Positions 1,346 through 44,922 of a stretch of 64,000 bases of DNA are shown here, piece after piece. How positions within the stretch are numbered: position 1 is the stretch's first letter; every line of letters begins with the position of its first letter. The DNA comes from Laburnicola sp. R22_1 (Eukaryota > Ascomycota > Dothideomycetes > Pleosporales > Didymosphaeriaceae), in assembly GCA_014281115.1 (NCBI GenBank), contig JACONQ010000014.1:1922001-1986000 (forward strand). The letters are read 5' to 3'. Both the position numbers and the translations under genes were made by a program. The notes under the pieces are model-generated. The model saw only the letters and a program-made list of their open reading frames with translations. It was not told the DNA's origin and made no database searches.

Positions 1346-1955
1346 GTCCGGGCTACTAATAGAATATATTATATAAATAATATATTATTGCTATAATCTT
1401 ATTATTAACTATATAATCTTACCCTTAACTACTATTAGCTAAACTAATACTCTACTACTAATAAGCCTAATTACGCCTTTAACAAATAGTAGTAAAGTAT
1501 AATAAATAGTTACTTAATAGAATCTTCCTATTAACTAGAATAAACTAGCTAGAGTAGAAGGCGTATAGATAGAGAAATAATAAATAGATAGGATAAATAT
1601 TAGTAAATAGATAGTTTATATAGAGGAAGGAAAACTACTAATAGTAACTTTAAAATAAAAAGTTACTAGTGTTTATACACTATATAGGCAAGAGTACCTA
1701 AGAATATTTAAGTTTTAATATTACTATATAATAGTATTATATAGAAATTATATAATGTCTGTGCGCTATAGCCTATATACTATAGAATTTTCTTCTTTCT
1801 ATTTGCATCCTCTCTAGAGACAAGCAATTAATACTAAGTTGTTTTATTATATTATTTCTTTTCCTTACATAATTATTTTATACACCCTTTACATTTAATA
1901 ATATAGAGTATTAGATATTAATATTTATAGAGCTAGCTATAGAGCCTATTTAACA
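1346..1955. other. AT-rich RIPed DNA without a recognisable gene
   Basis: The sequence is dominated by TA, TAA and CTA words with very few CA/TG dinucleotides. No open frame or motif could be recognised. It ends at the target duplication of Copia-1. Confidence 0.6.
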
Positions 1956-1960
1956 TACTC

Positions 1961-2248
1961 TGTTGAATGGGTACTCTACAGCTAGCTGTATAGACATCGA
2001 ATTCTAATCCTCTATACTGGCAAGCGTGGAGGGTGTACGGGGCGATCGTACGAGGAAAGGAAATAACATAACAGAACGACTTGGTATTGATTGCTTGTCT
2101 CTAGAGAGGGTGCGGATGGAAAGGAGAAGATCTTGCGGCGCACGGGCCGCGGCGCACGGGCATCACGTGATGCCCACGTGATGCCATCGTGCGGCAATAT
2201 TGAAACCTCAACACCCTCAGGTGCCCTTGCCCGTACGGTGTACGGACA
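1961..2248 (-). repeat. 3' LTR of Copia-1
   Basis: 288 bp, identical by eye to 8,950-9,237. It starts TGTTGAATGG and ends GTACGGACA on the plus strand. It contains two CACGTG palindromes (2,164-2,169 and 2,175-2,180), two GGCGCACGGG repeats and several CGTACG-type motifs. Confidence 0.95.
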
Positions 2249-3367
2249 CTGGCAACTTTTTGTTTTGAGGTTGCTGTTAGTGGTTCTCCCTTCCTCCGCA
2301 CGAACTATCTACTTGCCAATATTCACCCTGTCCATTCATTATTCCCCTGTCCGTACGCCTCCTGCTCTGGCTAGTTTGCTCTAGTTAACAGGAAGATTCT
2401 ATCAAGTAACTATTTGTCGTACTTTGCTGCCATTTGTCGGAGGCGCGATCAGGCTTATCAGTGGTGGAGTAGCGGTCTGGCCAATAGCGGTCAAGGGTAA
2501 GATTGCGCAGTCAACAACAAGATTGCGGCGACGATGTGTTGTTCGTACGGAGTTCTTTTGCTCAGTTTGTTCCTCGTACGATGGGTGGACCTAGTTGTCT
2601 TATCTGTTCAGGCAGCGATGTTGGGCAATCGTGCAACGTTGGATGAGGGGAAGACAAACGCCGATGAGGGGTAGGAATTGAGGCTCTGGACAGAAGGGAG
2701 AGGCATATAAGGTAGGCTTTCCTCCCTCTGTCCTTCTCTCTCTTATCCTCCACTTCGAACATCTCTCCGTACGTGTCCCTTCTCCCTGGCTCTTTTCTCT
2801 TTTTGTTAAGCTAATTCCCTGTTTCGTACGGTGCTGAATTGTGGAAAATAGGCTGAGGAGTTGCGTGTCGCACATCTGCCTTCGCACGATGTCGATGTCA
2901 TTCTTGCGGCTGGTACGGACCTGCGTCTGTGGGTTGCTAAGCTCATTCGGCGCGAGGGCTACTTTCGCGCGCTTCTTGTCCAGTCGCGCGGTGTCCTTAG
3001 GGGCACTGCGTGCGCTCACCGCTGTGGCGGTAACTCTGGCCCTGGGCCCTTTACTGAGTGTCGTACGGTGGCAAACTTCCAGGCGGGATCGTGCGGTTCT
3101 TGCGTGTGGCAGAGCCATGGTGCTAGGTGCGATCATCGCACGGGATAGGGCTGGATGGTAGGATAGACACTTCTGGACATTGTCCATAAGTACTGAAATG
3201 AAAAACTCTTCTCTAAATGAATGTGTGCTGTGTCTCTTCTCTTTCTGTGCGAATAAATAGATAGGAAAAAAACGCATTTTTAAGTAATGTGTGCGTGCGG
3301 AAAGAATTAAATAAATGTATCGCGCGAAAGAATAAATAAACAATAAGGAAATAGTCCTGTGTGGAGG
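2249..3367 (-). other. Copia-1 3' untranslated region with an in-frame open stretch
   Basis: About 1.1 kb between the pol stop (TAG, 3,368-3,370) and the 3' LTR, unusually long for a copia element. In the pol frame, translation after the TAG stays open for about 255 codons, down to 2,600, but has no ATG near its start. The predicted product is basic and low in recognisable structure. It may be chance, a readthrough extension or an eroded accessory gene. The region shares the dense CGTACG/CGTGCG motifs. Short plus-strand frames here are not convincing. Confidence 0.4.
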
Positions 3368-6300
3368 CTAGGAAGAGCTCGCGCGGGCGGGCTTGAGGCG
3401 ATCCACTGATGCTTCAACAGTGATTGTTAAGGTGTTGCTAGAGATTAAGGACTCTAGAGCCTGGTTTGGGGCCTTCTTCGTACAGGCATCAGCAGGGTTG
3501 TCCTTCCCATTGATCCATCTGATCTCAGAGATCTCGCGGTGCTCGTACGATTCGCGGAGTGACATGATGTCAATCATAAGGCGCTTCTCATTCGTGGTTC
3601 CTAGTCGTACGAGGCAGTCATAGAGAGACTTCGAATCTGTACAGACAACCACAGGAATTGGCGGTAGACTGAGCGTGCGTACGATCTTCTGGAGGGTTGT
3701 GCTGATAGCAATAGCATTGTCAAACCCTCCTACCATACCGTACAGCTCACTGGCAAGAACGCTCCTTGTTACTCTCTTGCACTTGGTTGAATTCCAGTGT
3801 ACGATGTTTGCCAGGATCTTGAAGTTGTCGCCATTACCCGTACGATGCTCATTGCCTAGAGCGATCAGGAATCCCAGCTGTGAGCTCAGGTCCTTGTTGT
3901 TGGCAAATGAGCCATTAGTGAAGATGAACAGCTTCGCGCGTTGAAGATCCAATGGTATGAAGGTGAGACCGCGCTCACTGTTGTTGATCTGCCATTGGAT
4001 TCGTGCGTTTAATGCCTTAATGTCTTCGTGCGAGGGTGATGTAGTCTGAGCGGCAACAGACAAATCGAATGCGGCTTCTGGTTGGCACACAGATGCGATG
4101 TAGGCGCCTCTCGCACGCTGCTCTACATACCTCTGAGCGGCACCCTTGTCTTCAGGGTTAATCGTGCGAAGGCCCTTTGCTTGCCCTTTCTGTGTAAGAA
4201 CCATAGTGTCATGCACAAGCCGAATTCTTCCACCATTGAACTCAATGGGTTGGTCTTCAGCAAGGACAGTCTTGTCCTTCGCACGGAAGGCTGCTTTCTT
4301 TAGCTCTTCTTCTTCTCTTCGTGCGAAGTTCTCATTGACAATGCTGAGAGTATCATCTGTCTGAAGGCCAGTGATCCCAAAGGTGTGCTCTCCTTCATCA
4401 GTGATGAGCAGACATGGGTCGTACGACGAAGTCTTCATGCCAAGTTTCTCTTTATGGTGGTTGTGGTAGGTCTTGAACCAGTAAAGACCTGATTCAGCTG
4501 CACCATAGAGTGGTCGTACGATGCGGAAGATTGTGTCTTGCGGAAAGTTCGTGCGCAGTTCCTTGGGTGGTCTAGCATAGAGCGTGCGGTTCAGTTTGTC
4601 AGTGGACTGAATGTAGGCCTGGGTGATGTCTCGCAGTTCGAAATGCATTCCGTACGTTGCCCGAAGGCTTGCTCCTAACGCGAGGAGTAGGCGCTGGCTC
4701 ATTCTTTGGATGGTGGGTGATTGGGTAAGGATTTTGTCCTTCTCCTCATCGGAGTGGCCAGCAAACACAAGGCGGGATTTCTCGTACGGTTGAGTAGTCT
4801 TGCCCTTAACTTCTCGTACGAGGCGGAGGTTGAAGATTCTGCCCTTATGCTTGGATGGGTCAAAGAGAAGAATCTCAAATGTGCCATTGGCGATTAGAGC
4901 GTTCATCTCCGTGCGGTCTGACTCTTCAAAAGGTGCTCCAGGTGTTGTGATTGTACCTTCCGCACGGAGCTTCAGAGACAGTTCCCAATCGCTTGTCTCC
5001 TTTTGGGAAAGGAATACAGCATCCTTCCTTGGGCGGCCTCTCCTCCTCTTCTCTGGAGGATCTCTTTGCACGGGGGCGGCATCATCTGCTTCGTGCGATG
5101 GTGGGAAAGTGTGATCTTCTTCGCGATAGTACGGCTTGACTTGCGTACAGCGAAACTTCACTGGACCATTCCCTAGGTCAAGGATCACATCTCTGTCCTC
5201 AATGCCCTTGATCTTGTACGGGCCTGTCCATCCACCTTTCTCTCTCCAGACCATGACCTCAGATCCAAGTGGGAGCTTAAGGACTTCGTGCGCTGCTGAC
5301 GGACCATTGCGGGTGTTCAGCGCACGATTAATGTTAGTCTTGTCCCTTTCCTTATGCAACATCTTCATCGCCTTTCGTACGGCATTTGTACGTGCGATAA
5401 TGTCGGGCGATGGGGGAGAATCTATGTTAATCCTGGGATATGCGCCAAAGACTAGCAGTGTGGGTACGAGGCCGTCTGGGCCTGCAGTGTCATTGATAGC
5501 TTTGACAGCCATCTGGAGGATGTCCTCCTCATCCGTACGATCTCCCAGTTCAGCCTTAAGAATGTCGAAGGCTCTGCGGAGGGGTGCGTGCGAACGCTCA
5601 ACCTTCCCTATTGCCCAATGTGCTTCTACGGGCATCTGCCTGCAGGTTGCGCCAATAATCTTCGCGCGGTTCCTGAACTCATCTGATGCGAAGTTCGTAC
5701 CTGGGTCATGTACGATGTAGTCAGGTGGACCTTGGTAGACATTGATCCAGCATCTACAGAGGGCTTCCCACGCATCTCGTGCGGACATTGATTTCAAGAA
5801 GATTGCAGCTTGAAATAATGTGTCTGCATCCACAACATGCAGTGCGTCTCTAGTTCCAATGCGTACGACATCAATGATGATCTCATAGTTAAAGTGGGTG
5901 TCATCCTTAATAGTGAACTTGAAGCGACGCGGGGCTTGTTCGTGCGATTGACAGTGGTGGCAAAACTTCTGGATTTCGTTCAGTACGGTGGCATCTACTT
6001 CATGGCCAGCGTTGGTAAGCATCTTCTGAAGTCTTTCCGTACGGGGATGTCCGAATCGTCGATGAAGGCGACGGAGTTCTTGTTCAGTGAAGAAAGACAC
6101 AGTTTCTTCCTTGCTAACATTGAAGAAAGGGTGTCCCCATTTGCGTACGACAGGTATAGTTGTGCCGTCCTTTCGTACGATGACATCTAGAACATTGTTG
6201 AAGTAGGCACCCAGCTTGTCAGCATCTGCCAGTGACAGCAGGAATGGTGTTGGAGTGTCTAGGATGTGGTAGGTAACCGTTCCTATTGGATTCGTGATTC

Positions 6301-8110
6301 GTACGGTTCCTAGAGATCCTTGTGGGTTCTGACCTCCAAAGCTGATGTTGGTGTTGCTAGGTGTCCAATCGATCTTCGTACAGGGGTTCTCTCGTACGTA
6401 TGCCTCTAGCTGTGCTTTGCCAACAGTGGAAATCCTTGCTGCACCTGTATCCCACAGTTCACCTTGGTATGTCGTACGGTATCGATCTTCAAGGATAAAC
6501 TGTTCCGCACACTCCTCTGGCTCTGTCTTATAGATGTGTTCGCCAGTCGTGCGGTAAAGATAGGCAGCAGTGGTCAGGTAGGACACTTGATTGTTGCCGT
6601 CCTCATTATCTTCACTCTGCTCCTCTTCTTCGTGCGAAGCAGGTCCCTCATCATCATACCCTTCTATGTCCTGAATGTAGGACTGAACGGTTTCGTACGA
6701 AGGCGTTTCATCATTGTGCTCTTCATAGAAGGTGATGTACTGCCTTGTCGCGCGGGTACGCTCATCGCGCGGATGGTTGGAAGACCAACAACCTTCCTTA
6801 TGGCACACAAAACACTTCTTCGGTCTCGTACGAATGTCGTTTGATCGGGATCTGAATCGCGATAATGATGGTACGAATCGTCCGCGAAATCCTCGTCCGC
6901 GAGGGACTGGTGGTCTGCCTCTTCGTGCGGGAAAGTTGTATTTGCGATCAGTGTAGTATGCATCAGCCTCTTGCAAGTGCTGATTAGATTGGCGATCAAT
7001 TGCAACTTGGATTGACGCACGGAGATCAGCAAATAGAGCTTCACAGGTAGGCTTAGGGGTGAACATAGCCTGCTCTAGCTCTAGGTGTCCGCGGCATGCT
7101 CGTACGACAGCAGTATGGAGAGGAATTTCCCCAGCGAAGTCCGCACCTAATGCTCTCTGTGCGAGGGTGAGCCTGTCAATCATTGCCTCTAGGACTTCGT
7201 GCAGACTCTTGTTAGGGTTCTCGCGCTGGCATCGTGCGAAAGTCATCGTGGTCCAGTCTGTCCAATACTGGTTATGGTTAACAGTAGTGTTAAAGTGACT
7301 GTTAAGTGCTTCGTACAAGCACTTCCACGATTGTCCAGGACGGATAGTATGGAGGTAATACTGTGCCGCACGGCCAGTAAGGATATCTGGAAAGATGTCT
7401 GGGTATTGATCCTCAGCAATATCTAGGCGTCTGCATAGATCTATAAAGATCCTAGTCTTGTCTGCCAAAATGTCGTACGGAGCTCCAGTATAGTTGTTAT
7501 CCTTGTTCCATGCCTTTTGAAATTGGATCATCTTGTCAGCTGGAATTCTCCGAGGAGGTAGGTTGTGCTTGGGTGGAAGCTCGTACGGGTTGGATTGTAG
7601 CATAGGCTCAGTCTGTGTAGATTGGTACAGTGCCTGTGATTCGCGTTTGACTAGTGGTGGCTCTATTCCGTACGGCGTTTGATAATCGCGAGCAGGTGGG
7701 CGAAGTGGTAGTTGGGTACCATGTGCGAAGAGTGGTGGTTCATTCGGTTGTTCGTACGAATGGGATTGTCTTTGGTACTCGTGCGAAGGTTCTCTTGAGA
7801 TGTCTGCAGGGACCTGCAGCTGTGTAGGTGCCTGCGGTGGCAGCGGCTTGCTCTGTTCGGGTTCGTGCGACAGCCTAACTGGCTCAGGTGTCTTTGAGAT
7901 TGGCCTTGGTGTTTGCGTACGAGGAGTTGAGCGAGCTGGCGAAGGCAGTGTTGTACGAGTGGTATCTGCATTGCCTTGGGCTACTTCGTACAGCTTGCTA
8001 GTATTTGTGGCTCTAGCATCTGTCCTTAGCTTAATGCCCTTTTCTCTTAGGACTGCTACAAGCTCTCTCTTGTACGCACGGCCTAACTCCAAAAATGGTG
8101 TTCTTCCCAT
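3368..8110 (-). CDS. Copia-1 Gag-Pol polyprotein (1,580 aa, intact)
   Basis: A single uninterrupted frame with all copia domains in order. An N-terminal basic helix resembles a SAP-like segment (KRELVAVLREKGIKL, about residues 14-28), then a proline-rich linker. The Gag core (about 200-390) precedes an Arg-rich stretch and a fungal-copia type zinc knuckle (KKCFVCHKEGCW..NH, about 430). The aspartic protease motif is LWDTGAARIS (about 552). The integrase has H/H (HRRFGHP) and CHHC (about 680-722), then D, D and E in IIIDVVRIG, VHDPGTNF and IGKVERSH (about 745-840). Reverse transcriptase (about 1,080-1,290) has the active site QTDDTL in place of the commoner YVDD. RNase H (about 1,380-1,560) includes VVVCTDSKS. 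It catalyses reverse transcription and integration of the element. No RIP nonsense codons are present, so it is potentially active. The T-D-D variant, its Gag and the CGTACG motifs mark a distinct lineage. Confidence 0.93.
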   Translation of the reverse strand: MGRTPFLELGRAYKRELVAVLREKGIKLRTDARATNTSKLYEVAQGNADTTRTTLPSPARSTPRTQTPRPISKTPEPVRLSHEPEQSKPLPPQAPTQLQVPADISREPSHEYQRQSHSYEQPNEPPLFAHGTQLPLRPPARDYQTPYGIEPPLVKRESQALYQSTQTEPMLQSNPYELPPKHNLPPRRIPADKMIQFQKAWNKDNNYTGAPYDILADKTRIFIDLCRRLDIAEDQYPDIFPDILTGRAAQYYLHTIRPGQSWKCLYEALNSHFNTTVNHNQYWTDWTTMTFARCQRENPNKSLHEVLEAMIDRLTLAQRALGADFAGEIPLHTAVVRACRGHLELEQAMFTPKPTCEALFADLRASIQVAIDRQSNQHLQEADAYYTDRKYNFPARRGRPPVPRGRGFRGRFVPSLSRFRSRSNDIRTRPKKCFVCHKEGCWSSNHPRDERTRATRQYITFYEEHNDETPSYETVQSYIQDIEGYDDEGPASHEEEEQSEDNEDGNNQVSYLTTAAYLYRTTGEHIYKTEPEECAEQFILEDRYRTTYQGELWDTGAARISTVGKAQLEAYVRENPCTKIDWTPSNTNISFGGQNPQGSLGTVRITNPIGTVTYHILDTPTPFLLSLADADKLGAYFNNVLDVIVRKDGTTIPVVRKWGHPFFNVSKEETVSFFTEQELRRLHRRFGHPRTERLQKMLTNAGHEVDATVLNEIQKFCHHCQSHEQAPRRFKFTIKDDTHFNYEIIIDVVRIGTRDALHVVDADTLFQAAIFLKSMSARDAWEALCRCWINVYQGPPDYIVHDPGTNFASDEFRNRAKIIGATCRQMPVEAHWAIGKVERSHAPLRRAFDILKAELGDRTDEEDILQMAVKAINDTAGPDGLVPTLLVFGAYPRINIDSPPSPDIIARTNAVRKAMKMLHKERDKTNINRALNTRNGPSAAHEVLKLPLGSEVMVWREKGGWTGPYKIKGIEDRDVILDLGNGPVKFRCTQVKPYYREEDHTFPPSHEADDAAPVQRDPPEKRRRGRPRKDAVFLSQKETSDWELSLKLRAEGTITTPGAPFEESDRTEMNALIANGTFEILLFDPSKHKGRIFNLRLVREVKGKTTQPYEKSRLVFAGHSDEEKDKILTQSPTIQRMSQRLLLALGASLRATYGMHFELRDITQAYIQSTDKLNRTLYARPPKELRTNFPQDTIFRIVRPLYGAAESGLYWFKTYHNHHKEKLGMKTSSYDPCLLITDEGEHTFGITGLQTDDTLSIVNENFARREEEELKKAAFRAKDKTVLAEDQPIEFNGGRIRLVHDTMVLTQKGQAKGLRTINPEDKGAAQRYVEQRARGAYIASVCQPEAAFDLSVAAQTTSPSHEDIKALNARIQWQINNSERGLTFIPLDLQRAKLFIFTNGSFANNKDLSSQLGFLIALGNEHRTGNGDNFKILANIVHWNSTKCKRVTRSVLASELYGMVGGFDNAIAISTTLQKIVRTLSLPPIPVVVCTDSKSLYDCLVRLGTTNEKRLMIDIMSLRESYEHREISEIRWINGKDNPADACTKKAPNQALESLISSNTLTITVEASVDRLKPARASSS

Positions 8111-8418
8111 CCTTCAAAGTCTTCCTGGAATGACTCCAAGAAAGCTGTCCCTTTCTGGTATGACGCACGATACTCAGCAATAGTATATGCCGCGTACGAT
8201 TGCATTTCCAACTGAGAAGGATTGTTTGCCATGTTGATCTCATCATTCCAATACACAGGTCTTGTTCCCTTGCGCAGTGTTTCCTCTGATATTCCTGTTC
8301 CTTTGACATACCGATCGTACGGTCCGGTATACTCAGGCACATCAGTGTTGTCTTGTGAGGCGATGGGGACTTCGTGCGAGGCGGTGGAGGCTTCTTGCGA
8401 GGTGGTAGGGGTAGCCAT
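8083..8418 (-). CDS. Copia-1 ORF1, short N-terminal Gag-like protein (111 aa)
   Basis: The first open frame after the 5' LTR and leader. It starts at an ATG (8,418) and ends in TAG at 8,083. The N-terminus is rich in Ser, Thr and Ala (residues 1-25). The rest is acidic and aromatic, with the stretch EYTGPYDRYVKGTG and a Trp/Glu-rich end (EGWEEHHFWS). I recognise no domain. Its last 28 bases overlap the start of the Gag-Pol frame, which lies in the -1 frame, at a run of five T (coding strand). ORF1 may therefore be the N-terminal part of a frameshifted Gag, or a separate small protein with pol started at its own ATG (8,110). There is no sign of RIP. The position and intact frame in a young element argue that it is real. 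Confidence 0.75.
   Translation of the reverse strand: MATPTTSQEASTASHEVPIASQDNTDVPEYTGPYDRYVKGTGISEETLRKGTRPVYWNDEINMANNPSQLEMQSYAAYTIAEYRASYQKGTAFLESFQEDFEGWEEHHFWS
8088..8100 (-). other. Candidate -1 ribosomal frameshift site in the ORF1/pol overlap
   Basis: In ORF1 the codons are CAC CAT TTT TGG AGT TAG. Slipping back one base on the T5 run (8,091-8,095) gives CA TTT TTG GAG, which continues directly into the long pol frame. It is not a canonical X XXY YYZ heptamer, so either simple slippage on the T run or initiation at the pol ATG (8,110) would explain expression. Confidence 0.4.
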
Positions 8419-8545
8419 TGCGTGACTGGTTCGTTCGATAGGTCGGTCGTACGGAGGGTCGCGCTTTATCGGGGTTTGTTGTTGTCTAACCGTGTCTTCG
8501 TACGGTTACTGGTGGTGTGCTTGGTGCACTATCTCCTCTTGAATC

Positions 8546-8890
8546 TCGTACAGCAGCGACATCTACTTACTGACTTGATAAAAGAGTTAATCTGCTATCC
8601 CTATAGATAAGGATAGGTTTTGTACGTCTCGTACAATCGCTTCCTAGGTTTTGTACAGCAGCGACATCTACTTACTGACTCCACAAAGGTTTGATCTGCT
8701 ATCCTCTTGCGTACGGAGGACAGGGTATAACGAAACAAATCGTACAGCTGATAACGTCTCGTACAATCGCTTCCTTTGTTTTGTACAGCAGCGACATCTA
8801 CTTACTGACTCCACAAAGTTTTTGGTCTGCTATCCTCTTGCGTACGGAGGGCAGGGTATGCGAAACAAATTGTATAGCTGATAACAACTT
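8546..8890 (-). repeat. Three direct repeats in the Copia-1 5' leader (period about 130 bp)
   Basis: The string CAGCAGCGACATCTACTTAC occurs at 8,551, 8,656 and 8,786. Units two and three share about 130 bp, including CTGCTATCCTCTTGCGTACGGAGG, CGAAACAAAT and CAGCTGATAAC; unit one is shorter. The linking word GTCTCGTACAATCGCTTCCT is present twice. The array lies between the 5' LTR and ORF1, where packaging, primer-binding or translation signals usually are. The units carry CGTACG cores. Confidence 0.85.
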
Positions 8891-8949
8891 GTGCGATCCG
8901 TCTTCACTCTTGCCAATTTGCAGTTGAGGGTTAGTCAACCACTAATTAG

Positions 8950-9237
8950 TGTTGAATGGGTACTCTACAGCTAGCTGTATAGACATCGAATTCTAATCCT
9001 CTATACTGGCAAGCGTGGAGGGTGTACGGGGCGATCGTACGAGGAAAGGAAATAACATAACAGAACGACTTGGTATTGATTGCTTGTCTCTAGAGAGGGT
9101 GCGGATGGAAAGGAGAAGATCTTGCGGCGCACGGGCCGCGGCGCACGGGCATCACGTGATGCCCACGTGATGCCATCGTGCGGCAATATTGAAACCTCAA
9201 CACCCTCAGGTGCCCTTGCCCGTACGGTGTACGGACA
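8950..9237 (-). repeat. 5' LTR of Copia-1
   Basis: 288 bp, identical to the 3' LTR at 1,961-2,248 and followed by the second TACTC. As the 5' LTR of a minus-strand element it should hold the promoter. The CACGTG pair (9,153-9,158 and 9,164-9,169) is a candidate bHLH-type site. No promoter element was proved. Confidence 0.95.
9153..9169. promoter_or_regulatory. Paired CACGTG E-box palindromes in the Copia-1 5' LTR
   Basis: Two CACGTG hexamers 11 bp apart, embedded in ATCACGTGAT and CCACGTGATG. The same pair is in the other LTR. CACGTG is the known core of fungal bHLH factors, so this is a plausible upstream site for the LTR promoter. Binding is inference. Confidence 0.35.
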
Positions 9238-9242
9238 TACTC

Positions 9243-27009: not shown

Positions 27010-28303
27010 CTTTAATTTAACTTAGTACTAATACTATTATTCTATCTTCTTTTTCTAACTTTTCTTCTTTAACTACTTCCTTCTCCCCTAAGAAATAAGC
27101 TGTCCCTTAGCTTATAATGCGCCGAGGTTTCGGCTAGCTTACTCCTCCTAATAGGCAAAGTCTAAGAGATTAAAGTTTGCTAGTAGCGGCGAAATCCCTA
27201 CTTACTTTATCCTTATAGGGACATCCTATATATATCTTATCAGCCTCTATAATCTGCGCGCAAATATAGGATGTTTAGGCTTAGGTGTCTATATAACTTT
27301 ATTAAGGTCTGTAGGATTAATTCCCTCTAAGGAATTAGTAATTTCTTCTAAGAGGTTGTTAGTGTCTATAATATTAGGTTCTAGCATTGTGTTAAAGTCT
27401 ATTGTCATACATAGTTAGAATTAAACAATGCGGTTACCTAGCGTTCTATTATAAAAGGATATTCTATTAAGCTTTTTAAGCATATACTATCCTTCACTGT
27501 GCGATAGCATGGCCCTAATCCTAAAGGGGCCCTAGTACCTTCTAGCGAGCTTCACTTTACGACTTATATTGCTGGCCTAAAAAGTATTATATACTAACAC
27601 TAGATCGCCTTATTATAGTGGCTCTGTCCTAAAAGTGCGCTAGTTATTAAACCATTCCTTTTCTTATTTGCGCAGTTAGATAGTTTAGTTAATAGCTTCT
27701 TAAAGGCAATAGTTATATTTCTTAAACTGCTCCGCTCTAATAGCTAGAAGTTCTTTAGTAGTATAAACCTATTTCTATAGAAGTGTCTGCTAGGTTAGAA
27801 TGCAAAGTTTAATAGGGAGAATATATTCTCTTCTATAGATTAGAAAAGCTAGTGTTTTGCCTATAAATTATTTTACTATAACCTAATTAGCTCATAGCAC
27901 TTTAGGTAGGTTCTAGACCTAGTCGCCCTTTATTTTCCGCAGTGCACTAATAAGCTCTTAGTGGCCTCTTTCTACTAGACTCTACCCTTATAGGTAATAA
28001 GCACTAGATACCACTTATTAGACCCTAAACTATTTAGCCAAGTCCTCTACTAAGCCTCTATTCTCTAGTTCTCTATCCACTAATAGGCGAAAAGGAATGT
28101 CCCACCTACTAAAAATAGATTCTTCTAAGAACTAGGCAACTACGGCTGAGTTAGCGTTAGTGAGCACTTTCTCTTTGGGCTATTTAGAGGTATAGTCCCT
28201 AGCAACAACTATAAATTCCTTCTATTATATTCCCTATTCGTAATAATATAGTCCTTCCCACATTTAAAGTATTCTTTAAAATAGTCTTTTTCTTACTATG
28301 TTA
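27010..28303 (-). pseudogene. Gypsy-2: Ty3/gypsy integrase relic
   Basis: Minus strand, only lightly RIPed. From about 28,235 down it reads KEFIVVARDYTSK, KVLTNANSAVVAQFLEESIF, RWDIPFRLLVDRELENRGLV, VVSSAYY, SLVERGH and NLPKVL. This follows gypsy integrase order: D of VARDY, D of LLVDRE, and the E of LVERGH. A C-terminal tail (FNTMLEPNIIDTNNLLEEI, about 27,310-27,400) ends the frame. It has no visible chromodomain and belongs to a different lineage from Gypsy-1. It stops at the Copia-2 insertion point (28,304-28,308). A Gag frame continues on the other side at 33,690-35,025, so RT and RNase H are missing. Confidence 0.65.
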
Positions 28304-28308
28304 GATCT

Positions 28309-28545
28309 TGTCAGATTTGATAGTGTTCTGTCACTTTAAGATAATATATTAATAAGAATTGATGACTGTGATGATTTTTATTGTGATAGAGAAGCCCAGC
28401 TATCGCGAGAAGTTTCTATCTATGCTAAGGCCCTTATACTATCTAGGATAGTACAGGGGCAATGCAAAACAGTAGTGCACCAGCCTCCTCAGTGTATTTC
28501 ACAGAGAAATTATCACTAGAATGCACAGTGACCGTCTATCTGACA
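28309..28545 (-). repeat. 3' LTR of Copia-2
   Basis: 237 bp, about 98% identical to 33,441-33,677. This copy carries A where the other has G at four of the five differing sites. Confidence 0.92.
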
Positions 28546-28559
28546 CACCCCCTCAGCTT

Positions 28560-31500
28560 GGAGCCATCCTAAGCTGGACCCAATTCTTCGCAGCTGTACT
28601 ATTGCTCATAGTCCAAAAGCTTCCATCCTTTGTTCTAATTTGTCCAGGTCGACCTTGTAGTCGGTGATCCTACCCTTGACGTCTTCAAGTCCGAGTTGAT
28701 TTACGAACTTGGCCCATTTTCCAGCTGGCAGAGCCTTTGTAAGGCCATCTGCTGCTATTTCTTCTAATTGTTGGTATTGGATTTTGATAGCTCCACAAGC
28801 TACTTCTTATCGAAGCCAATAATTATGTATATTGACGTGCCTAAGCTTAGTCTGTAACTTGGCGATTTCTTTAGTAACGAGTCGAATAGTTTGTTGATTA
28901 TCGCAGTTGATAGTGATTGTTAATGGGGAGAGTTTGATCTTAAGTTTAGTAATCAACTAAGAGGTAAAGAGTGCCTCTTTTGCAACTTGTGAAAGGGCTA
29001 GCAACTTAGCTTTAGTTGTTAAGGTGGTGACTGTGTCTTGCTTACTCGCCTTCTAGGCAACAAGACTACTAAACAGCTTAATAATGTATCCTTGTGAGCT
29101 CTTTCTATCGAGGGTGTTGTTAGCGAATGAGGCATCGCTAGCAACCTTATAAGTGTCTGCTCCTCCAAAGCGTAGCCCTAATAATCGGGTGGAGGACAGG
29201 TAAAGCAGTACGCGGTCGGCGGCGTTGTGATGCTCCTCGCTGGGATTTGACAGGAATCGCGATAATTAAGAGCTTGCGAATGCGATATTAGGGCGTGTGG
29301 TTACTGTGGCGTAAAGGATTAATCTGATCTTTTGCTAGTATTAATTAATCTTAGCCTTTGTAGCGAGTCCTTCTTGGGGTAGCAGTTCGACTGTGGACAT
29401 TGGGGTATCGTGTTTAAGGTCGCGTTGGTCAATTAGGCGATTAATCTTGTCTATATAGGACGCCTAGAACAGCTAGAGTTGCCTATTTGCACGGTCTCTA
29501 ACAATTTCAATCCCTAGAAACCACTAAAGATTATTACCACCAGTGAGGATGAACCATATACTTATCTTTTCCATCACTGCGTTAGCAGCGTGTTTCTAAT
29601 CTTTAGAGTAGGCGACGATGAGGTCGTCCACATAGAAGAAGATGATAATGCCGTCTTTAATCATACAGCAAGGCTCATGAGGGACTGTAGTAAAACCAAG
29701 ATCCCTGAGAGCGCTGGTAAATTCTCTCTGCCACAGCAGTGGTGAGATTTAAAGACCATACAGTGCCTTGTGCAACTATAGAATAGTGCCAGGTCGTGTG
29801 TAACCTCGCGGCATTCTCATGTAGAGTTCTCTGTCCAGATTCGCATGGACGAAAGCGTTGGTAACGTCGTACTAGCTGAGCTCTAGGTCGTATCAAGCTG
29901 CTATGGACATAATCAGGCGAAATAATCGTCCTGCGAGAGTTGCAGCATAGGTGTCTTAAGTAGTAAGGTGGCGTTATTAATCTCCGCGCACTACTAACCT
30001 AGCCTTGCACTTCTGAAATTAATAATATTTATCGAGTTTGTAAGTATACACCCACATGCAATTAAGAATTTAGTGGCCGCGTGATCGCACTAAGGTAATA
30101 GACACCTCACTCCAAGACTTCATTTCCTTATGGCTTTGTAGGTGTACCTGCTTGGCCTCCTTCCACATATTAAATAGCGGGTAATTGTCTATCTGTGTTC
30201 CGCTAAATAGAGGTTCTAGTAATTGACTTTAGTGGGGTTTCTATCCTATTGCAAGCATACGATTAAATTAAGCTTTGTCGAGCAGCTTCCCCTTATACTT
30301 ACCTCTGCTTCCTGCTTGTGTACCTGCTAGGAAAGCGGCTGCCCATAGCACAGCGCGTTAATCTAGCTATGATAATCTAATAGGTAACTAGTCGTGTTAA
30401 TCGTGTTTAAAACTCACCATTAATTGGACAAGCAATGCGACAGGCGGAGGTGTCACTAGTAGTGTTAGGTAGGTGTAATTAATCTTCCTCCCTTAGTAAT
30501 ACCCTAGCGGGTCTTCTTCTTCATCCTCGCGATTGCGGGTGTCAGTGATTAACTCATCCTCATAGAAGGATTCAGTGTTTTCTTGCTTAGGTAGTGGAGG
30601 TGGCAACTCTACTAATTAGGTCCATGCAGCAATCTCTTCAGTAGTGCTGTGCATAAGGTTGTCTAACAGGTCCTCTGTTTTACCTAAGAACACCTTATCT
30701 TCGTCAAAGATAACGTCGCGTGTACTGATGACTTTGTTAAGTAGTAGGATCCATATCCTCCAGATGTTTAATGATTAGTAGCCCACTAGGTATCCAACCT
30801 ATGCCTTCAGGTCTAACCTTTGGAGCTTGCTCTTGCCGCGTTTAGTATTGTTAGTCAAGGCAAAGGCTTTACAGCCATAGGCCCTAAGGTAAGCCTGGTT
30901 TAGTTTCTTTGGTTGAGTGACAATGCCGTTTTGAAAAGCAACCATCATAAAAAATACTTTGTGTGGTAATCGCCATTGGTTAGCGTAGTTCGGAGTTCGA
31001 TTATATAGGTATACGGCCGCTCGTGTGATTTCTGGCCATAGGTTAAAAGGGAGATTGGCGTCAAGTCGCATTGCACGACCCTTCTCCTTAATTACACCCC
31101 CTAAGCGTTCAGCTCCTCCATTTTAAGCTTGGGTATCAGGTGCTAAAGGCTCGATAACAATACCTTCACTAACGCACCACCTATGAACGTCTTATTTGAC
31201 TAAAAAGATCTCATTGTCAGATTCGATGACCTTGACCGTTACATTAAATTGTACTTTTATGAATAGTACAAATTCCTTTAGCAACTTAATGATTATTCGT
31301 GCTAGTCGATTGTCTTTGAAGTAGAAATCCCAAGCTATGCCTAAGAATCAATCGGTGATGAGCATCTGGCTTTTCTCGCTAGTGAAGCTCTGATCTTCAT
31401 AATCGTAAAAGTCTATAGCGACTCTCTCGCCAGGACCATCGTTGATTTGCCTGGGTTGTTGTCTAATTTGTCGCTTGAGCTTTAATCTGCCGCAGGCGTC

Positions 31501-33399
31501 GCATTAGACTATAGTAAGTCCTTTGAGGCGCACCCCCTCACAGTGATTCACAGTGTGTTCTAGTGCCTGAGGACCTGGGTGGCCTAGTCGTTTATGCCAT
31601 GTGATAGCGTCTGCCTTCTACACACCTCGTGCGGTGCGCGTTATAATTTTGTGTGTGGCATACGTACTATTGTGTATAGTACAATTTTGTTTGGGCATAT
31701 ATTCTAGTACCTATTGACTATAAAGTTCTTAAAGGTCAGCCAGAAGTGTATTGTCCCTTCTCTTAATTATTGTTGGATCTGCCTTTGTGTCCCACTAAAG
31801 GCCTTGCCTGCGGAGTAATTGGAAGAACACAAGATTGCATAGCAGATTAGGGCAGTAGGCGACGTTGTCTAGCCTTAGTACCCTATTTCCGTGTACGCTC
31901 TTAACATGTAGATGGACACTCCTATATCCCCTTATCCAAACTCGTGATAATCCCGCCCATATAAAGTCTCCTGGCGACGGTGGTCGCATCGTAACAAAAC
32001 AGTTGATATTATTAAAGATATGGCATGTTGTGCTAGAATTAAGGATCGCGGAGTAACGTAGTAGATAGGTATTCGGGTCTAAGTAGTAGAAAGATGCGAT
32101 AGCATTAAAGCTCGCTAAGAGGACAGTAATTTGTCTGCCATCTAGTTATTCATTATTAGTAACCTTAGTAATTCGGGTTGGAGTAGGAGTATGCGATAGT
32201 TTAATTCTAGGTGTTTAAGACCTTAGTCTTTTCACCTTCCTTATCTCCTCTTATAGATCTAAATTATTTTGGATCCTGTATTATACTATGTCTGTAAAGC
32301 CAGGTCGTGGCCTAAACCACTCTGGTGCATAATCTAGGTATGCGTAGAAGCAGTCTTTTAGACTATGCCTTTGTCCACAAGCAGGGCATTTTCTGCCTTT
32401 AACTGCTGTTGTATCCTCTATTAAGGACTGCTTGGATATAGTACTTTAACCAAAGGATCGTTTTTATTAAGGTCTCCCCCGTCCACGTTAGTTATTCGTG
32501 GAAGATGGCGCGTCTTCAGCAGCGTAAGAGGCGTCCCTATTAGTGCCTAGGGTGGATGCACCACCAGCAGCGAGAGATGGCTCACTAGCAGCAAAGGCGC
32601 CCCTATACTGTTTGCCCTTAATTGGGTGGAGTATTGCCATATGTTCTTGGAAGCGTTTTATCATCTCCTTCCTTGTTATATCTGCGTCTTAGCGTCCAGT
32701 TTCTTAAAAGGACACGCCCTAGGTAGGGGCAGCCTTCATAATCGCAGTCAGGAAGTCCTTCATAGTATTATAGATTAATTATACTTCAGCGACATTGTTT
32801 GTCTCTGCTTCTGTAGCTGCCTAATCATACTCAGTTAGCCAGGTATCCCAGTTTAAGGGTTGTCTCATTGGCTTAAGAGCCTATAGGTATCGTGCTCTCG
32901 CCCTATCCCGCTCGTCTTCCTTATCAACGCCTACTGTCTGCGTTAGAGATTTAATCCATTTTCAGATCTGCTCTCTAGGCTTGCAGCAGTTACGTTGCAG
33001 GTGTTGCAACACAGTAGATTGGATATAGATAACCACTTTCTTAAGACTTGTTCTCTCTTCTTAGTATTCTTTGTCCTTAATCTTGTAGTCCTTAAGCTGT
33101 ATCTTATAGAACTCAATGTCCTCCTTATATGCCTTAAGGCCTGAGTTTGATAGCTCTAATAGGCGTGTTAGAGGGTTCTGTTAATCGTCGTTGTTTACGC
33201 GGATAATCAGCTGGTAACTCGCTATTTCTGGCGGCGACGGCGGTGTCGGCTTTTCGCGTGGGAGTTTGGCTCCGTCTGGATTAATAATAGGCCATATATC
33301 CATTAGCTCGCATCGCGCTTTTAGCTGCTGCAGCCATAGTGTATAGTTGGTGTAATCAGTCAACACGATCGTTGAGTCGCGGAGCGTTGACAGCGACAT
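28560..33399 (-). pseudogene. Gag-Pol pseudogene of Copia-2
   Basis: It starts at an ATG at 33,399 with 72 clean codons (MSLSTLRDSTIVLTDYTNYT, then LWLQQLKARCELM, the UBN2/copia Gag start). A Gag zinc knuckle RKCPACGQRHSLKDC lies at about 32,343-32,395. The protease-proximal block VRVLRLDNVAYCPNLLCNLV-like is at 31,795-31,989. The integrase C-terminal half (MRLDANLPFNLWPEI, YLYNRTPNY, LRAYGCKAFAL) is at 30,799-31,071. Reverse transcriptase is intact around its active site FFYVDDLIVAY (about 29,605-29,640), and RNase H runs to about 28,600. In-frame TAA/TAG codons and a few indels separate these pieces. YVDD is conserved here, unlike TDD in Copia-1. Confidence 0.8.
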
Positions 33400-33422
33400 T
33401 GTCTTTTCTTAGGGTTGATTGA

Positions 33423-33440
33423 GGCAGTGAGACTCTTAAT
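33423..33440 (-). other. Primer-binding site matching an internal tRNA-Lys(CUU) fragment
   Basis: Directly after the 5' LTR the coding strand reads ATTAAGAGTCTCACTGCC. Its complement GGCAGTGAGACTCTTAAT resembles the D-arm/anticodon-arm part of eukaryotic tRNA-Lys, with anticodon CTT inside GACTCTTAAT. Copia of Drosophila and Ty5 are known to use half-tRNA primers cut in the anticodon arm (iMet). Here the primer would be a Lys half-tRNA. The same bases occur next to the Copia-2b LTR at 40,625-40,642. The tRNA match is from memory of the family. Confidence 0.5.
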
Positions 33441-33677
33441 TGTCAGATTTGATAGTGTTCTGTCACTTTAAGATAATATATTAATGAGAATTGATAACTG
33501 TGATGATTTTTATTGTGATAGAGAAGCCCAGCTATCGCGAGAAGTTTCTATCTATGCTAAGGCCCTTGTACTATCTAGGATAGTACAGGGGCAATGCAAA
33601 ACAGTAGTGCGCCAGCCTCCTCAGTGTATTTCACAGAGAAATTATCACTGGAATGCACAGTGACCGTCTATCTGACA
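33441..33677 (-). repeat. 5' LTR of Copia-2
   Basis: 237 bp, partner of 28,309-28,545, followed by the second GATCT. Confidence 0.92.
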
Positions 33678-42114: not shown

Positions 42115-43006
42115 AGTAATTTACTATACTATTTAATAGTAGAACCTTATAGGCGCAATATAATTTAAAAGTGTAAAGATAACTGCAAAGTAAGCTAAGA
42201 AAAGGATATATTATAGTAATTTACTATGCCGTTTAAATACAGAGCTTCTAAAGTATAATATAAAATTATAGTCTAAAGTAGCTACAAAGTAAGCTAAGGA
42301 AAGGATATATTATAGTAATTTACTATACTATTTAAATATAGAGTTTCTAAAGCATAATATAGATTAGTAGTCTAAGGTAACTACGAAGCAAATTAAGGAA
42401 AGAGTAGGTTACAGTAATTTATTATACTGTCTAAGAGTAAGGTATCTAAAGCGCGACTTAGGTTTATAGTCTAAGGTAGCTGCAAAGCAAATTAAGAAAA
42501 GGGCAGGTTACAGTAATTTATTATGCTATCTAAGAATAGGGCACCTAAAGCGCGACTTAGGTTAGTAGTCTAAGGTAACTATAAAGCAAATCGAGAGAAG
42601 GGCAGGTTATAGTAATTTATTATACTATCTAAGAGTAGGGCACCCAAAGCGCAACCTAAATTTATAGTCTAAGGTAGCTGCGAAGTAAATTAAGGAAAGG
42701 GCTAGTTATAGTAAGTTATTATACTATCTAAGAGTAGGGCACCTAAAGTATAACCTAGGTTAGTAGTCTAAGGTAACCGCAAAGTAAATCGAGGAAAGGG
42801 CAGATTATAGTAATTTCTTATACTATCTAAGAGTAGGGCACCTAAAGCGCGACTTAGGTTTATAGTCTAAGATAGCTGCGAAGCAAATTAAGAAAAGAGT
42901 AGGTTATAGTAATTTATTATACTATCTAAGAGTAAAGTATCTAAAGCGCAATATAGGTTAGTAGTCTAAGGTAACTACAAAGAAAGCTAAGAGAAGGGCA
43001 TATTAT
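42115..43006 (+). repeat. Nine-unit 99-bp tandem array, apparently coding for a 33-aa repeat
   Basis: Units start at 42,115, 42,215, 42,314, 42,413, 42,512, 42,611, 42,710, 42,809 and 42,908. The period is exactly 99 bp except for one extra base in the first unit. A tenth start at 43,007 breaks off just before pogo-3. In the plus frame with fewest stops each unit reads roughly NLLYYLRVGHLKRDLGL, a stop or Trp, SKVAAKQIEERAGYS, with a single recurrent TAG where Trp is likely. Units 3-9 alternate strictly between two versions (AGTAGTCTAAGGTAACT and TATAGTCTAAGGTAGCT), giving a 198-bp higher-order period. It does not match ankyrin, TPR, PPR or WD40 patterns that I know. There are no spacers, so it is not a CRISPR array. 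Confidence 0.8.
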
Positions 43007-43049
43007 AGTAATTTACTATAGTAATGTGCGATGGCTGTAGAATAAAGTA

Positions 43050-44922
43050 ACGTACTCCACAACCAAGCGACTTACCTAACCGAGCGACTCACTTTTGCCA
43101 AGACCCCACTAAAACGTACTACTATTAATAGTACAACGCGATGCCTTAATAACACAATAAACTACTAGCGTTAAACAAAGCTTATATACAGCTTGCGATC
43201 TAGGCTATTAAACAAGACGCGTTACTTTCGCAAAGACGCGCTACCGCCATCTATAATATCCCTTAAAAGACCCTTAGCTAATAACGCGCTAGAATCGCCT
43301 TCTAACGCAACTGTCTACCCAACACAATAAAGCTTACTATATGAGAGGAGCAGGCAATTATACAGCATGTACTCAACCTAGACTCGCAAGGATTCCCGCC
43401 ACAGCTTACTACTGTGGAGGATATAGCCAATTCTTTGCTAGCTAAGCGGCATCACAACCCTATAGGCCATAACTAGGCTCCAAACTTTGTTAAGCGCTAG
43501 CTAGAGCTTAAAGTTAGGTTTAATCGAAAGTACGACTATAAGAGAGCCCTCTAGGAGGATCCTAAGGTAATACGAGGCTGGTTCCGACTTGTAGAGAACA
43601 TGAAGGCTAAGTATAGTATCCTAGATAAGGACACCTATAATTTCGACAAGTCTGGCTTTATAATGGGCATAATATCAACTAGAGCGGTAGTCACAGGCTC
43701 TAAGCGTTAAGGACGGCTAAAGTAGGTGCAGCAGGGCAATAGAGAGTGGACAACAGTCATCTAAGGCATCAACGCGATAGGGTGGTAGATTCCACCCTTC
43801 ATTATCTTTGGGGACAAGCACCACCTCTCCGCCTAGTATAAGGAGAAGGATCTACCTTATAATTAGGTTATTGCAGTCTCTAAGAACAGCTAGACAATAA
43901 ATAAGCTTAGTCTATAATAGCTAAAGCACTTTAATAAGTATATAAAGAGGCGTACTACTAGTAGAGCACGTTTGCTTATTATTAATGGCCATAAAAGTTA
44001 TAACTAGCTCGAATTCCAGGATTACTACAACAAGAGTAATATTATTACTTTCTATATGCCTTCACATTTGTCGCACCTCTTGCAGCCACTTAACGTGAGT
44101 TGTTTTGCGCTGTTAAAGAAGGCGTATAGGCGCCAAGCTAAGAATCTATTGCGCAACCACATCACGCACATGACTAAAATCGAGTTCCTACCTTGCTTTA
44201 TTACTGCTTTTAAGGCTTTAATTACTGAAAGTAATATTAAAGAAGGCTTTCGAGGTGCTGGCCTAGTGCCCTACAACCTAGAGGCTGTACTATCGCAGCT
44301 TAACGTCCGCCTGCATACGCCTCCAGAATGTACTATTTGCGATAGTATATAGGAGTTGCAAACTCCGCGAAATAGTATAGAACTTAGGTTACAATTAATG
44401 CTAGTTAAGTAGAGGATTTAAAGGCATGTAGATAGTTCCCTAAATTATATAGTTAAGGCGGTGGAAAAGCTTGTTAAAGGTGCTAAGCTAATGGGGCATT
44501 CTTTAGTGTTAATAACCAAACGCAACGCCAAACTTTAAGCTGCTAATAAGGCCGCCACGCGACGTAAATCGCACAAAAGAAAGCGATTGCAGTAAGAAGA
44601 AGCTCTTATAGCTAAAGAGGGCCAGTGGTTGGCTACTCTAAAGGACTTTGCGGCGCACAGTGATGGTAAGAAGGCAAAGAAGAGAGCGCGCGTTAATGGA
44701 GGCGAGCCAACTCAACGGCGCTGTGGATGCTGCGGCGAGCCTAGGCACAATAGAACAACGTGTAAGTAACCTGCAGAAGTAGATTCTGAATAGATTGGCC
44801 TATTTAGACTATTAATAATAGTTCGTATTAACTCTGTACTGTCGTGAATAGTATATGTTTTAGTGGGGTCTTGGCAAAAGTGAGTCGCTTGGTTAGGTGA
44901 GTCGCTTAGTTGTGGAGTACGT
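43050..44922 (+). mobile_element. pogo-3: least-damaged pogo/Fot1 element, TA duplication
   Basis: It begins ACGTACTCCACAACCAAGCG and has inverted repeats of about 70 bp that contain two subterminal copies of AACCAAGCGACTCACCT, then CTTTTGCCAAGACCCCACT. TA flanks both ends (43,048-43,049 and 44,923-44,924). The 1,873-bp length and internal gene fit Fot1/pogo. It is collinear with pogo-2, sharing the inner part of the inverted repeats but not the outer part. It is inserted at the end of the 99-bp array. Confidence 0.9.
43141..44790 (+). pseudogene. pogo-3 transposase, mildly RIPed
   Basis: From ATG 43,141 the frame gives a pogo-type transposase of about 550 codons with roughly twenty TAG/TAA/TGA. 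Order: N-terminal helix-turn-helix/CENP-B-like DNA-binding part; NRKYDYKRAL and VIRGWFRLVENMKAKY; first Asp region DKDTYNFDKSGFIMG; KHHLSA.YKEKDLPYN; second Asp region LLIINGHKSYN (Asp changed to Asn); then a 98-codon clean stretch at 44,056-44,352 (MPSHLSHLLQPLNVSCFALL, FRGAGLVPYNLEAVLSQLNV). The C-terminus has a Lys/Arg-rich segment and a CX2CX4HX4C zinc knuckle (CGCCGEPRHNRTTC, about 44,721-44,763), which many Fot1-type proteins lack. It is inactive as it stands. Confidence 0.8.

Follow-up and report, generated by a model that had tools for sequence, protein, structure and literature searches.

The window analysed here, a 64-kb stretch of the genome of Laburnicola sp. R22_1, holds at positions 1961-9237 a Ty1/copia-type retrotransposon, the Copia element, which is filled with the hexamer CGTACG and its relatives of the form CGYRCG. 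A preliminary description of the stretch had noted this by eye and had proposed that a protein of the element recognises the motif. The features that matter here are listed below (LTR, long terminal repeat; ORF, open reading frame; RIP, repeat-induced point mutation).

1961..9237, minus strand: Ty1/copia-type LTR retrotransposon of 7277 bp, its sense strand being the minus strand; 91 CGYRCG, 42 of them CGTACG
1961..2248, minus strand: 3' LTR in the sense orientation, 288 nt, same sequence as the other LTR; 5 CGYRCG
8950..9237, minus strand: 5' LTR in the sense orientation, 288 nt; 5 CGYRCG
1956..1960, no strand: target-site duplication TACTC, from the junction read-out
9238..9242, no strand: target-site duplication TACTC, from the junction read-out
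3368..8110, minus strand: gag-pol ORF of 1580 codons, with the reverse transcriptase (RVT_2) following the integrase region; 26 CGTACG spread over the three codon phases
8083..8505, minus strand: Gag N-terminus, lying in a different frame from the rest of Gag but continuous with it in relatives; probably the ORF1 of the preliminary description
2852..3145, plus strand: accessory ORF with DUF3716 (PF12511), antisense to the 3' region; candidate motif-binding factor
2249..3367, minus strand: region from pol to the 3' LTR, 1.1 kb; 15 CGYRCG
8519..8822, no strand: three leader repeats of 69 nt each, bearing CGTACG-like sites
1395..1955, plus strand: RIP-mutated relic of the same Copia family (LTR and 3' region), in the orientation opposite to the element

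The two LTRs are identical over their 288 nt, run from TG to CA and are bordered by the 5-bp TACTC duplication. The gag-pol product matches the RVT_2 profile at residues 1105-1285 (E 2e-8, above the cut-off) and gag_pre-integrs at 672-721, below the cut-off; no integrase profile matched it in the profile scan, and its integrase region was placed between these two matches by alignment with relatives. Copies with a continuous Gag frame are present elsewhere in the genome. The insertion point is exactly the 5 bases that adjoin the LTR end of the family's own RIP-mutated relic (window 1395-1961), and a diverged copy on contig C11, L032 (1577-8268 of that locus), is also nested within a RIP-mutated family copy. 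Database relatives of the sense-strand open frame at 2600-3367 were searched for and none was found; this frame most plausibly represents the complementary strand of the DUF3716 gene. The viral contigs scanned gave no relatives, the sequence searches of the PDB gave none save one chance-level match (E 1), and no family match was found in the 5' flanks (360-373 bp) of five genomic loci (L003, L004, L005, L022 and L023). The scan of other genome contigs gave a single distant contig, L001 (JAPYPR010000046.1), which lacks the motif. It holds a Copia element, probably fungal, that is filed under an Erythrobacter metagenome-assembled genome and is likely a contamination of the bacterial record.

A dyad motif throughout the Copia element

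The estimates of about 40 CGTACG and about 35 CGTGCG or CGCACG made in the preliminary description agree with the counts for 1961-9237, which are 42 and 41. The 64-kb window has 45 CGTACG, with 42 starting in the element, where 1.1 are expected from a first-order Markov model based on dinucleotides. CGTGCG occurs 29 times in the window and 26 times in the element, CGCACG 19 and 15 times, and CGCGCG 8 times in the element, so that CGYRCG totals 91 with both LTRs counted, or about one per 80 bp. All 13 occurrences of the longer form TCGTACGA in the window lie within the element. As had been stated, the motif is found alike in the LTRs, the 3' region, the ORF and the leader (5.4-7.2 CGTACG per kb) and in all codon phases of gag-pol (6/9/11). 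The near absence from the flanks that had also been described holds as a count, only 3 CGTACG being present in the 56.7 kb outside the element, but it is partly compositional because the flanking DNA is AT-rich and for the most part RIP-mutated (GC 0.36 and TpA/ApT 1.61, against a GC of 0.50 in the element).

The motif is a dyad, YCG-N2-CGR. A refined symmetric position matrix, made from the element with one LTR, gave YCG-(T/C)(A/G)-CGR and found 91 sites at a threshold allowing 4 false positives, and the flank preferences are roughly dyad-symmetric. The everted arrangement YCG-N2-CGR was seen 59 times in the Copia element (5.2 expected), 44 times in L032 (4.8), 16 times in a hAT transposon (1.3) and 11 times in a pogo-like transposon (2.7), the last two being described below. 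Among everted spacers of 0 to 8 tested in these four motif-bearing elements, none besides N2 was comparably raised. Some direct-repeat spacings are mildly raised (in hAT at n=0, 6 against 1.4), as are some in control elements. The spacing of CGYRCG along the Copia element is unusually even (coefficient of variation, CV, 0.59 against a random mean of 0.98; 0 of 20,000 simulations as low), and this evenness is weaker for CGTACG alone (CV 0.74, P 0.03) and for CGYRCG in L032 (CV 0.74). Within the ORF it may be partly due to where the protein leaves room.

Selection on the motif at the DNA level

The motif is under DNA-level selection in the Copia element. In 2000 synonymous-codon shuffles of the gag-pol ORF, CGTACG reached a mean of 2.7 and a maximum of 9, against 26 seen, and CGYRCG a mean of 8.6 and a maximum of 18, against 58 seen; similar counts in such shuffles had been named beforehand as the result that would speak against the motif. 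The protein sequence permits CGTACG at 39 positions of the ORF, of which 26 bear it and 32 bear some CGYRCG. The control palindromes are little used at their own permitted positions (ACGCGT 0/14, CGATCG 0/17, GTCGAC 0/14, GCTAGC 0/13, GCATGC 1/4, TACGTA 1/17 and TCGCGA 3/29). Of the positions permitted for CGTACG, the frames of the hAT transposon use 9 of 11 and 1 of 1, and the pogo-like frame 3 of 6. Agreement with the consensus amino acid of the 6 closest relatives is no less frequent at motif codons (0.76) than elsewhere (0.71). A mutational or compositional origin of the excess, by CpG-biased mutation, avoidance of RIP or codon bias, could appeal to the higher GC of the element relative to its flanks, but the shuffles and the control palindromes both speak against it, and we find it scarcely credible. 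The one-step variants point the same way: TGTACG and CGTACA, with T for the first C, are enriched in the Copia element (21 against 2.8 expected), while CATACG and CGTATG, with A for the following G, are not (1 against 2.7). Decay of CpG would give the second pair equally often, so the first pair is not mainly CpG decay, and its members look like tolerated variants. Elsewhere this contrast is only a trend (14 against 5 in L032, 7 against 2 in hAT, 4 against 1 in the pogo-like element).

To follow the sites through the family, the host genome (64 Mb in 26 contigs) was searched and 30 gag-pol loci, L002-L031, were fetched. The family has a few near-identical copies, and about 19 of the loci fetched are heavily RIP-mutated. 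The diverged copy L032 has 82.7% aligned DNA identity with the window copy and is without RIP bias. It has 75 CGYRCG, 57 columns being in common with the window copy, and it preserves 53 of the 79 gap-free sites of the window copy unchanged, as compared with 2106 of 5455 control hexamers and 180 of 517 control hexamers that are GC-rich and bear CpG. Codons whose amino acid is unchanged are identical in 114 of 129 cases inside sites and in 850 of 1174 others (Fisher 3e-5; amino-acid-matched expectation 92.1), so that synonymous sites, for which a test of the excess had been proposed, are conserved within the motif. Sites have nevertheless turned over: 18 are private to L032 and 22 gap-free ones to the window copy, therefore sites were gained and lost, and loss by transitions like those of the one-step variants is among the changes seen. 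Of the decay and renewal that had been suggested, renewal and loss between copies thus stand, but the common one-step variants have the look of tolerated sites and not of decayed ones.

The RIP-mutated copies carry the traces of the same sites. In ten of them (L006-L015), a mutated CGYRCG would account for 888 of 898 aligned motif columns but for only 676 of 61,548 other windows, therefore the sites are older than those copies. In the relic at 1395-1955, 7 of 7 aligned motif sites fit a mutated CGYRCG, as do 12 of 540 windows overall. RIP in this relic has hit 54 of 64 CpG and 62 of 73 CpA, against 19 of 68 CpC and 12 of 70 CpT. Because RIP mutates CpG and CpA it destroys the motif, which is a further point against a mutational origin.

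Motif-bearing families and the DUF3716 gene

TCGTACGA was found at 1190 places of the genome (985 for the pattern read backwards). Among the places listed, which cover the first 2.9 Mb of contig C1, three clusters stand out, one of them a run of WD40-like repeats. The other two are transposons. L036 is a hAT transposon, with the C-terminal dimerisation domain PF05699 (E 2e-11) in a frame of 127 codons, and has 19 CGTACG in 3 kb (0.43 expected), 14 of them in the form TCGTACGA. Its match to another hAT copy stops at L036 6972, and the right-hand neighbour gene is without CGTACG. L037 is a pogo-like transposon, with DDE_1 (PF03184, E 1.2e-29) between terminal inverted repeats of 63 bp (4442-4504 and 6545-6607, 92% complementary), inside which 7 CGTACG lie against 0.18 expected. 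Three transposon superfamilies thus carry the motif. Its centre is stricter in hAT, with 19 CGTACG and 0 other CGYRCG against 42 and 49 in Copia (P 4e-6); the pogo-like element, with 7 and 1, resembles the hAT form (P 0.03 against Copia, 0.30 against hAT).

Five sampled elements served as a comparison set with little or no CGTACG excess. Seen and expected CGTACG are 0 and 0.56 in a second LTR element of the window, 1 and 1.05 in the Copia element of L001, 4 and 1.28 (P 0.04) in L033, a Copia element 50% identical in protein, and 2 and 0.36 (P 0.05) in the multicopy pogo L042; the fifth, the hAT L041, is taken up below. Of 34 transposon places on C1, 26 have no TCGTACGA within 2.5 kb and 6 a single one, 32 in all; among the matches listed, only the hAT L036 and the pogo-like L037 exceed that. 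These places were drawn from incomplete match lists and typed by hand, and at least two elements appear twice.

Two of the motif-bearing families share an accessory gene that is absent from the preliminary description. The ORF on the plus strand of the Copia element (2852-3145) matches DUF3716 with 41.4 bits (E 1.4e-10), and the minus-strand ORF at 3745-4263 of L036, in the left part of that locus, with 53.3 bits (E 2.6e-14), the curated cut-off being 22 bits. Three CGTACG fall inside the hAT ORF. The two domains are 40% identical over 93 columns (BLASTP 5e-18 as a single comparison) and each has six cysteines, five of them aligned, with spacings of x2-12-10-2-8 in hAT and x3-11-10-2-8 in Copia. 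Two Copia copies of the ORF differ, RIP-type changes aside, 15, 8 and 26 times at codon positions 1, 2 and 3, most often therefore at the third. DUF3716 is nearly confined to these two families: of 15 matches genome-wide, 14 lie in them, 9 beside copies of this Copia family, and each of 5 close hAT copies has one within 8 kb. With tblastn, DUF3716 was matched in 22 of the 30 gag-pol loci L002-L031, some of the remaining ones ending short of the DUF3716 part, and in L034 and L035. L033 and L001 lack both DUF3716 and the motif.

The NCBIfam scan of DUF3716 gave no match, and the name was not found in the open-licence literature searched, although PF12511 is reported, in the text accessible to us, for a strain-specific Colletotrichum gene of unknown function. 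Fungal Zn2Cys6 clusters have the spacing C-x2-C-x6-C-x5-12-C-x2-C-x6-8-C and bind CGG half-sites. The everted CGR half-sites of the motif would suit a Zn2Cys6-like domain, but we do not regard DUF3716 as such a cluster: its cysteine spacing differs and there was no Zn_clus match at E<=1, which leaves a resemblance only.

As for the remainder of the window, positions 10000-52000 are mostly RIP-mutated and AT-rich, with TpA/ApT up to 1.9 in 4-kb steps and lower at 28001-32000. The second, less degraded element, without the motif, lies at 28308-33677 between 238-nt repeats (98% identical). A tandem array of about nine 99-bp units is present at 42115-43069, and a 358-codon ORF at 54666-55742 (minus strand), in a part of higher GC, looks by eye like a short-chain dehydrogenase. 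At another locus (L038, 4700-5500) a frame of near-identical WD40-like repeats lies beside an ORF that looks, by eye, HET-like and NACHT-like.

A candidate reader of the motif and its possible role

Given its carriage by Copia, hAT and pogo-like elements, the 8-base dyad most likely acts on DNA. The YCGYRCGR sites would be recognition sites for a DNA-binding dimer, reading two everted CGR half-sites exactly two bases apart, and selection or drive would have spread them over whole elements, to most of the places that the protein sequence allows. DUF3716 is the natural candidate reader because it is common to two motif families and otherwise nearly absent from the genome. Its protein, encoded by the Copia and hAT elements, would most likely be the binder and would coat the DNA of its own family in trans, keeping it transcribable; relief from silencing in trans is, by likeness to the VANC proteins of Arabidopsis, the most likely benefit. 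The pogo-like family, having acquired the motif, and the L032 branch, having lost the gene, could then be free riders. The stricter centre in hAT fits two diverged proteins, each with its own version of the site. We infer both the binding of DUF3716 to the motif and the preference for anti-silencing over another DNA-level benefit, and we put the case for DUF3716 as the motif-binding factor of a VANC-like trans-acting system, most likely an anti-silencing one, at about an even chance. We do not favour the binders proposed in the preliminary description, ORF1 and the N-terminus of Gag. ORF1 corresponds to the Gag N-terminus, read out of frame with the remainder, and its model has only a very weak helix-turn-helix resemblance, the weak top Foldseek matches being MerR-type regulators; DUF3716 is the better candidate. 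A weak or empty list from Foldseek or VIA does not, however, count against a fold. The N-terminal part of Gag (8083-8505, minus strand) also has a helix-turn-helix-like look by eye.

Several observations weigh against this reading. DUF3716 is borne by just two families, so the association rests on two events, and one locus was probably assembled twice and so accounts for two of the 14 assigned matches, since the copies C4:1697692 and C18:34017 differ at 1 of 7728 bases and have the same flank; part of C4 may thus be repeated as C18. The fifteenth match, weak and partial (C4:2531527-2531634, E 1.2e-4), lies away from both families and might belong to a relic or to a third element. The L032 branch is rich in the motif and lacks DUF3716, the corresponding stretch being absent, and the pogo-like family likewise carries the motif without the gene. 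Both families of DNA transposons were found through motif clusters in about 5% of the genome, and further motif families without DUF3716 may exist. Among presumed non-users, the multicopy hAT L041 has a faint excess of CGTACG (3 against 0.40, P 0.008) and L033 an excess of TGTACG (10 against 2.4, P 2e-4). In neither open frame does an ATG precede the domain, so the DUF3716 genes must be spliced or start elsewhere, and the AlphaFold model of the domain was unusable (pLDDT 38). When all 23 relatives are taken, motif codons average an identity of 0.49 and the others 0.55, a slight deficit. RIP had been proposed for mapping in copies with and without motifs; mapped across the ten RIP-mutated copies, it has left 99 of 898 aligned sites intact, and the motif gives no exemption from it.

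The motif might instead be bound by a transcription or chromatin factor of the host, the transposon families having gathered sites independently for their transcription while DUF3716 does something else. Pseudocercospora fijiensis is a Dothideomycete, of the same class as the host; the best named relatives of one host gene, 70% identical, come from Pleosporales such as Paraphaeosphaeria. In the accessible text of two papers on this fungus, TCGTACGA is the palindromic core of a Cyp51 promoter element, extra copies of which go with higher Cyp51 expression (PMC6637983, PMC6797121). The Pfcyp51 element and the transposon motif thus have the same palindromic core, and the pogo-like family, with sites and no DUF3716, is also as a host factor would have it. 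The Pfcyp51 element differs in that it belongs to the promoter of a host gene, and in the text seen its binding factor is not named and no link to DUF3716 is shown. A host factor would leave three things unexplained: the 14 of 15 DUF3716 matches in motif-rich families, sites running end to end through coding sequence and not only a promoter, and the scarcity of the motif at most of the transposon places sampled on C1. We therefore consider it doubtful.

DUF3716 might also bind the motif for another purpose at the DNA level, such as control of integration sites or copy number, nuclear handling of cDNA or DNA, repression of rivals or protection of DNA ends. The evidence on the motif and on DUF3716 all fits this equally well, and the lack of protection from RIP in the mutated copies would be in keeping with it. 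Sites packed densely over whole elements are more in keeping with coating or chromatin than with steps of transposition confined to the ends, and the stages that LTR retrotransposons have in common with hAT and pogo-like elements are those of chromatin, transcription, replication and strand transfer; on these grounds we think such a purpose unlikely. Action in the RNA, by packaging or dimerisation of the Copia transcript, appears very improbable to us. CGUACG is self-complementary and present throughout the transcript, and in predicted folds the mean unpaired probability is 0.28 at sites against 0.42 at controls, with 24 of 91 sites fully paired against 27 of 400, but sense-strand variants in which G-U pairs would allow self-pairing are not the preferred ones (25, against 37 that do not allow it) and the flank preferences are roughly symmetric about the dyad. 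The packaging role that had been envisaged is unlikely, since the motif is also present in DNA transposons of the hAT and pogo-like kinds.

The likeness to VANC proteins and VANDAL elements that the preliminary description had drawn can be kept in part. In the accessible text on VANC (PMC5735166), as here, a short motif concentrated in transposons belongs with an accessory protein encoded by the element, whose action in trans is described there and proposed here, and motif and protein differ between families; accumulation of the motif within an element family is found here too. The VANC6 motif is also present in an unrelated Arabidopsis element, AT9TSD1 (PMC5735166); a counterpart may be seen here in the pogo-like family and in the L032 branch, which have the motif and lack the gene. 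Selection on DNA, carriage by three superfamilies and an accessory protein in two of them agree with the VANC reading; the tandem repeats of the VANDAL type do not. VANC21 motifs are non-coding and spread in tandem repeats (PMC5735166), whereas the sites here are mostly dispersed and single, in coding and non-coding parts alike, with 58 CGYRCG dispersed in the ORF and repeats with sites in the leader only. VANDAL elements differ further in being of plants and not of a fungus, the elements here being Copia, hAT and pogo-like and the candidate protein DUF3716. A second parallel is given by fungal DNA transposons that encode TET/JBP, for which 11 lineages, with no LTR retrotransposon among them, are named in the accessible text (PMC12730594). 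There too one accessory gene that potentially counters silencing is common to unrelated transposon lineages, but it encodes an enzyme, and no element-wide target motif is described in that text (PMC12730594). Among the open-licence matches listed, by title and start of abstract, no report of CGTACG or TCGTACGA in transposons was found; PMC4595289, in the text accessible, merely names the enzyme BsiWI. The DNA uptake sequences also resemble the present case in being a dispersed short motif, but concern bacterial DNA uptake and not a fungal mobile element. In Neisseria and Pasteurellaceae they are dispersed by point mutation over coding and non-coding DNA under a recognition-based drive.

A system of motif-guided anti-silencing that takes in both retrotransposons and DNA transposons is not known to us from outside plants. 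More broadly, and more tentatively, DUF3716 may be a transposon-borne system of sequence-specific self-recognition in ascomycetes, its gene having passed between an LTR retrotransposon and hAT, the DNA of each family having been rewritten, synonymous positions included, into a dense array of dimer sites, and others riding free by means of the site alone; we judge this wider claim plausible, though somewhat short of an even chance. It can be tested directly with one small protein and one 8-base probe, for which the motif versions TCGTACGA, CCGTACGG and TCGTGCGA are named, and clusters of the motif offer a simple handle in the search for such systems in other genomes. If it is true, a Pfam family of unknown function would gain a function, and the Copia element would be a clear case of a DNA-level signal that reshapes synonymous sites across a whole element. 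Motif-guided anti-silencing of transposons would then be no peculiarity of plants, and unrelated transposons could share one passport.

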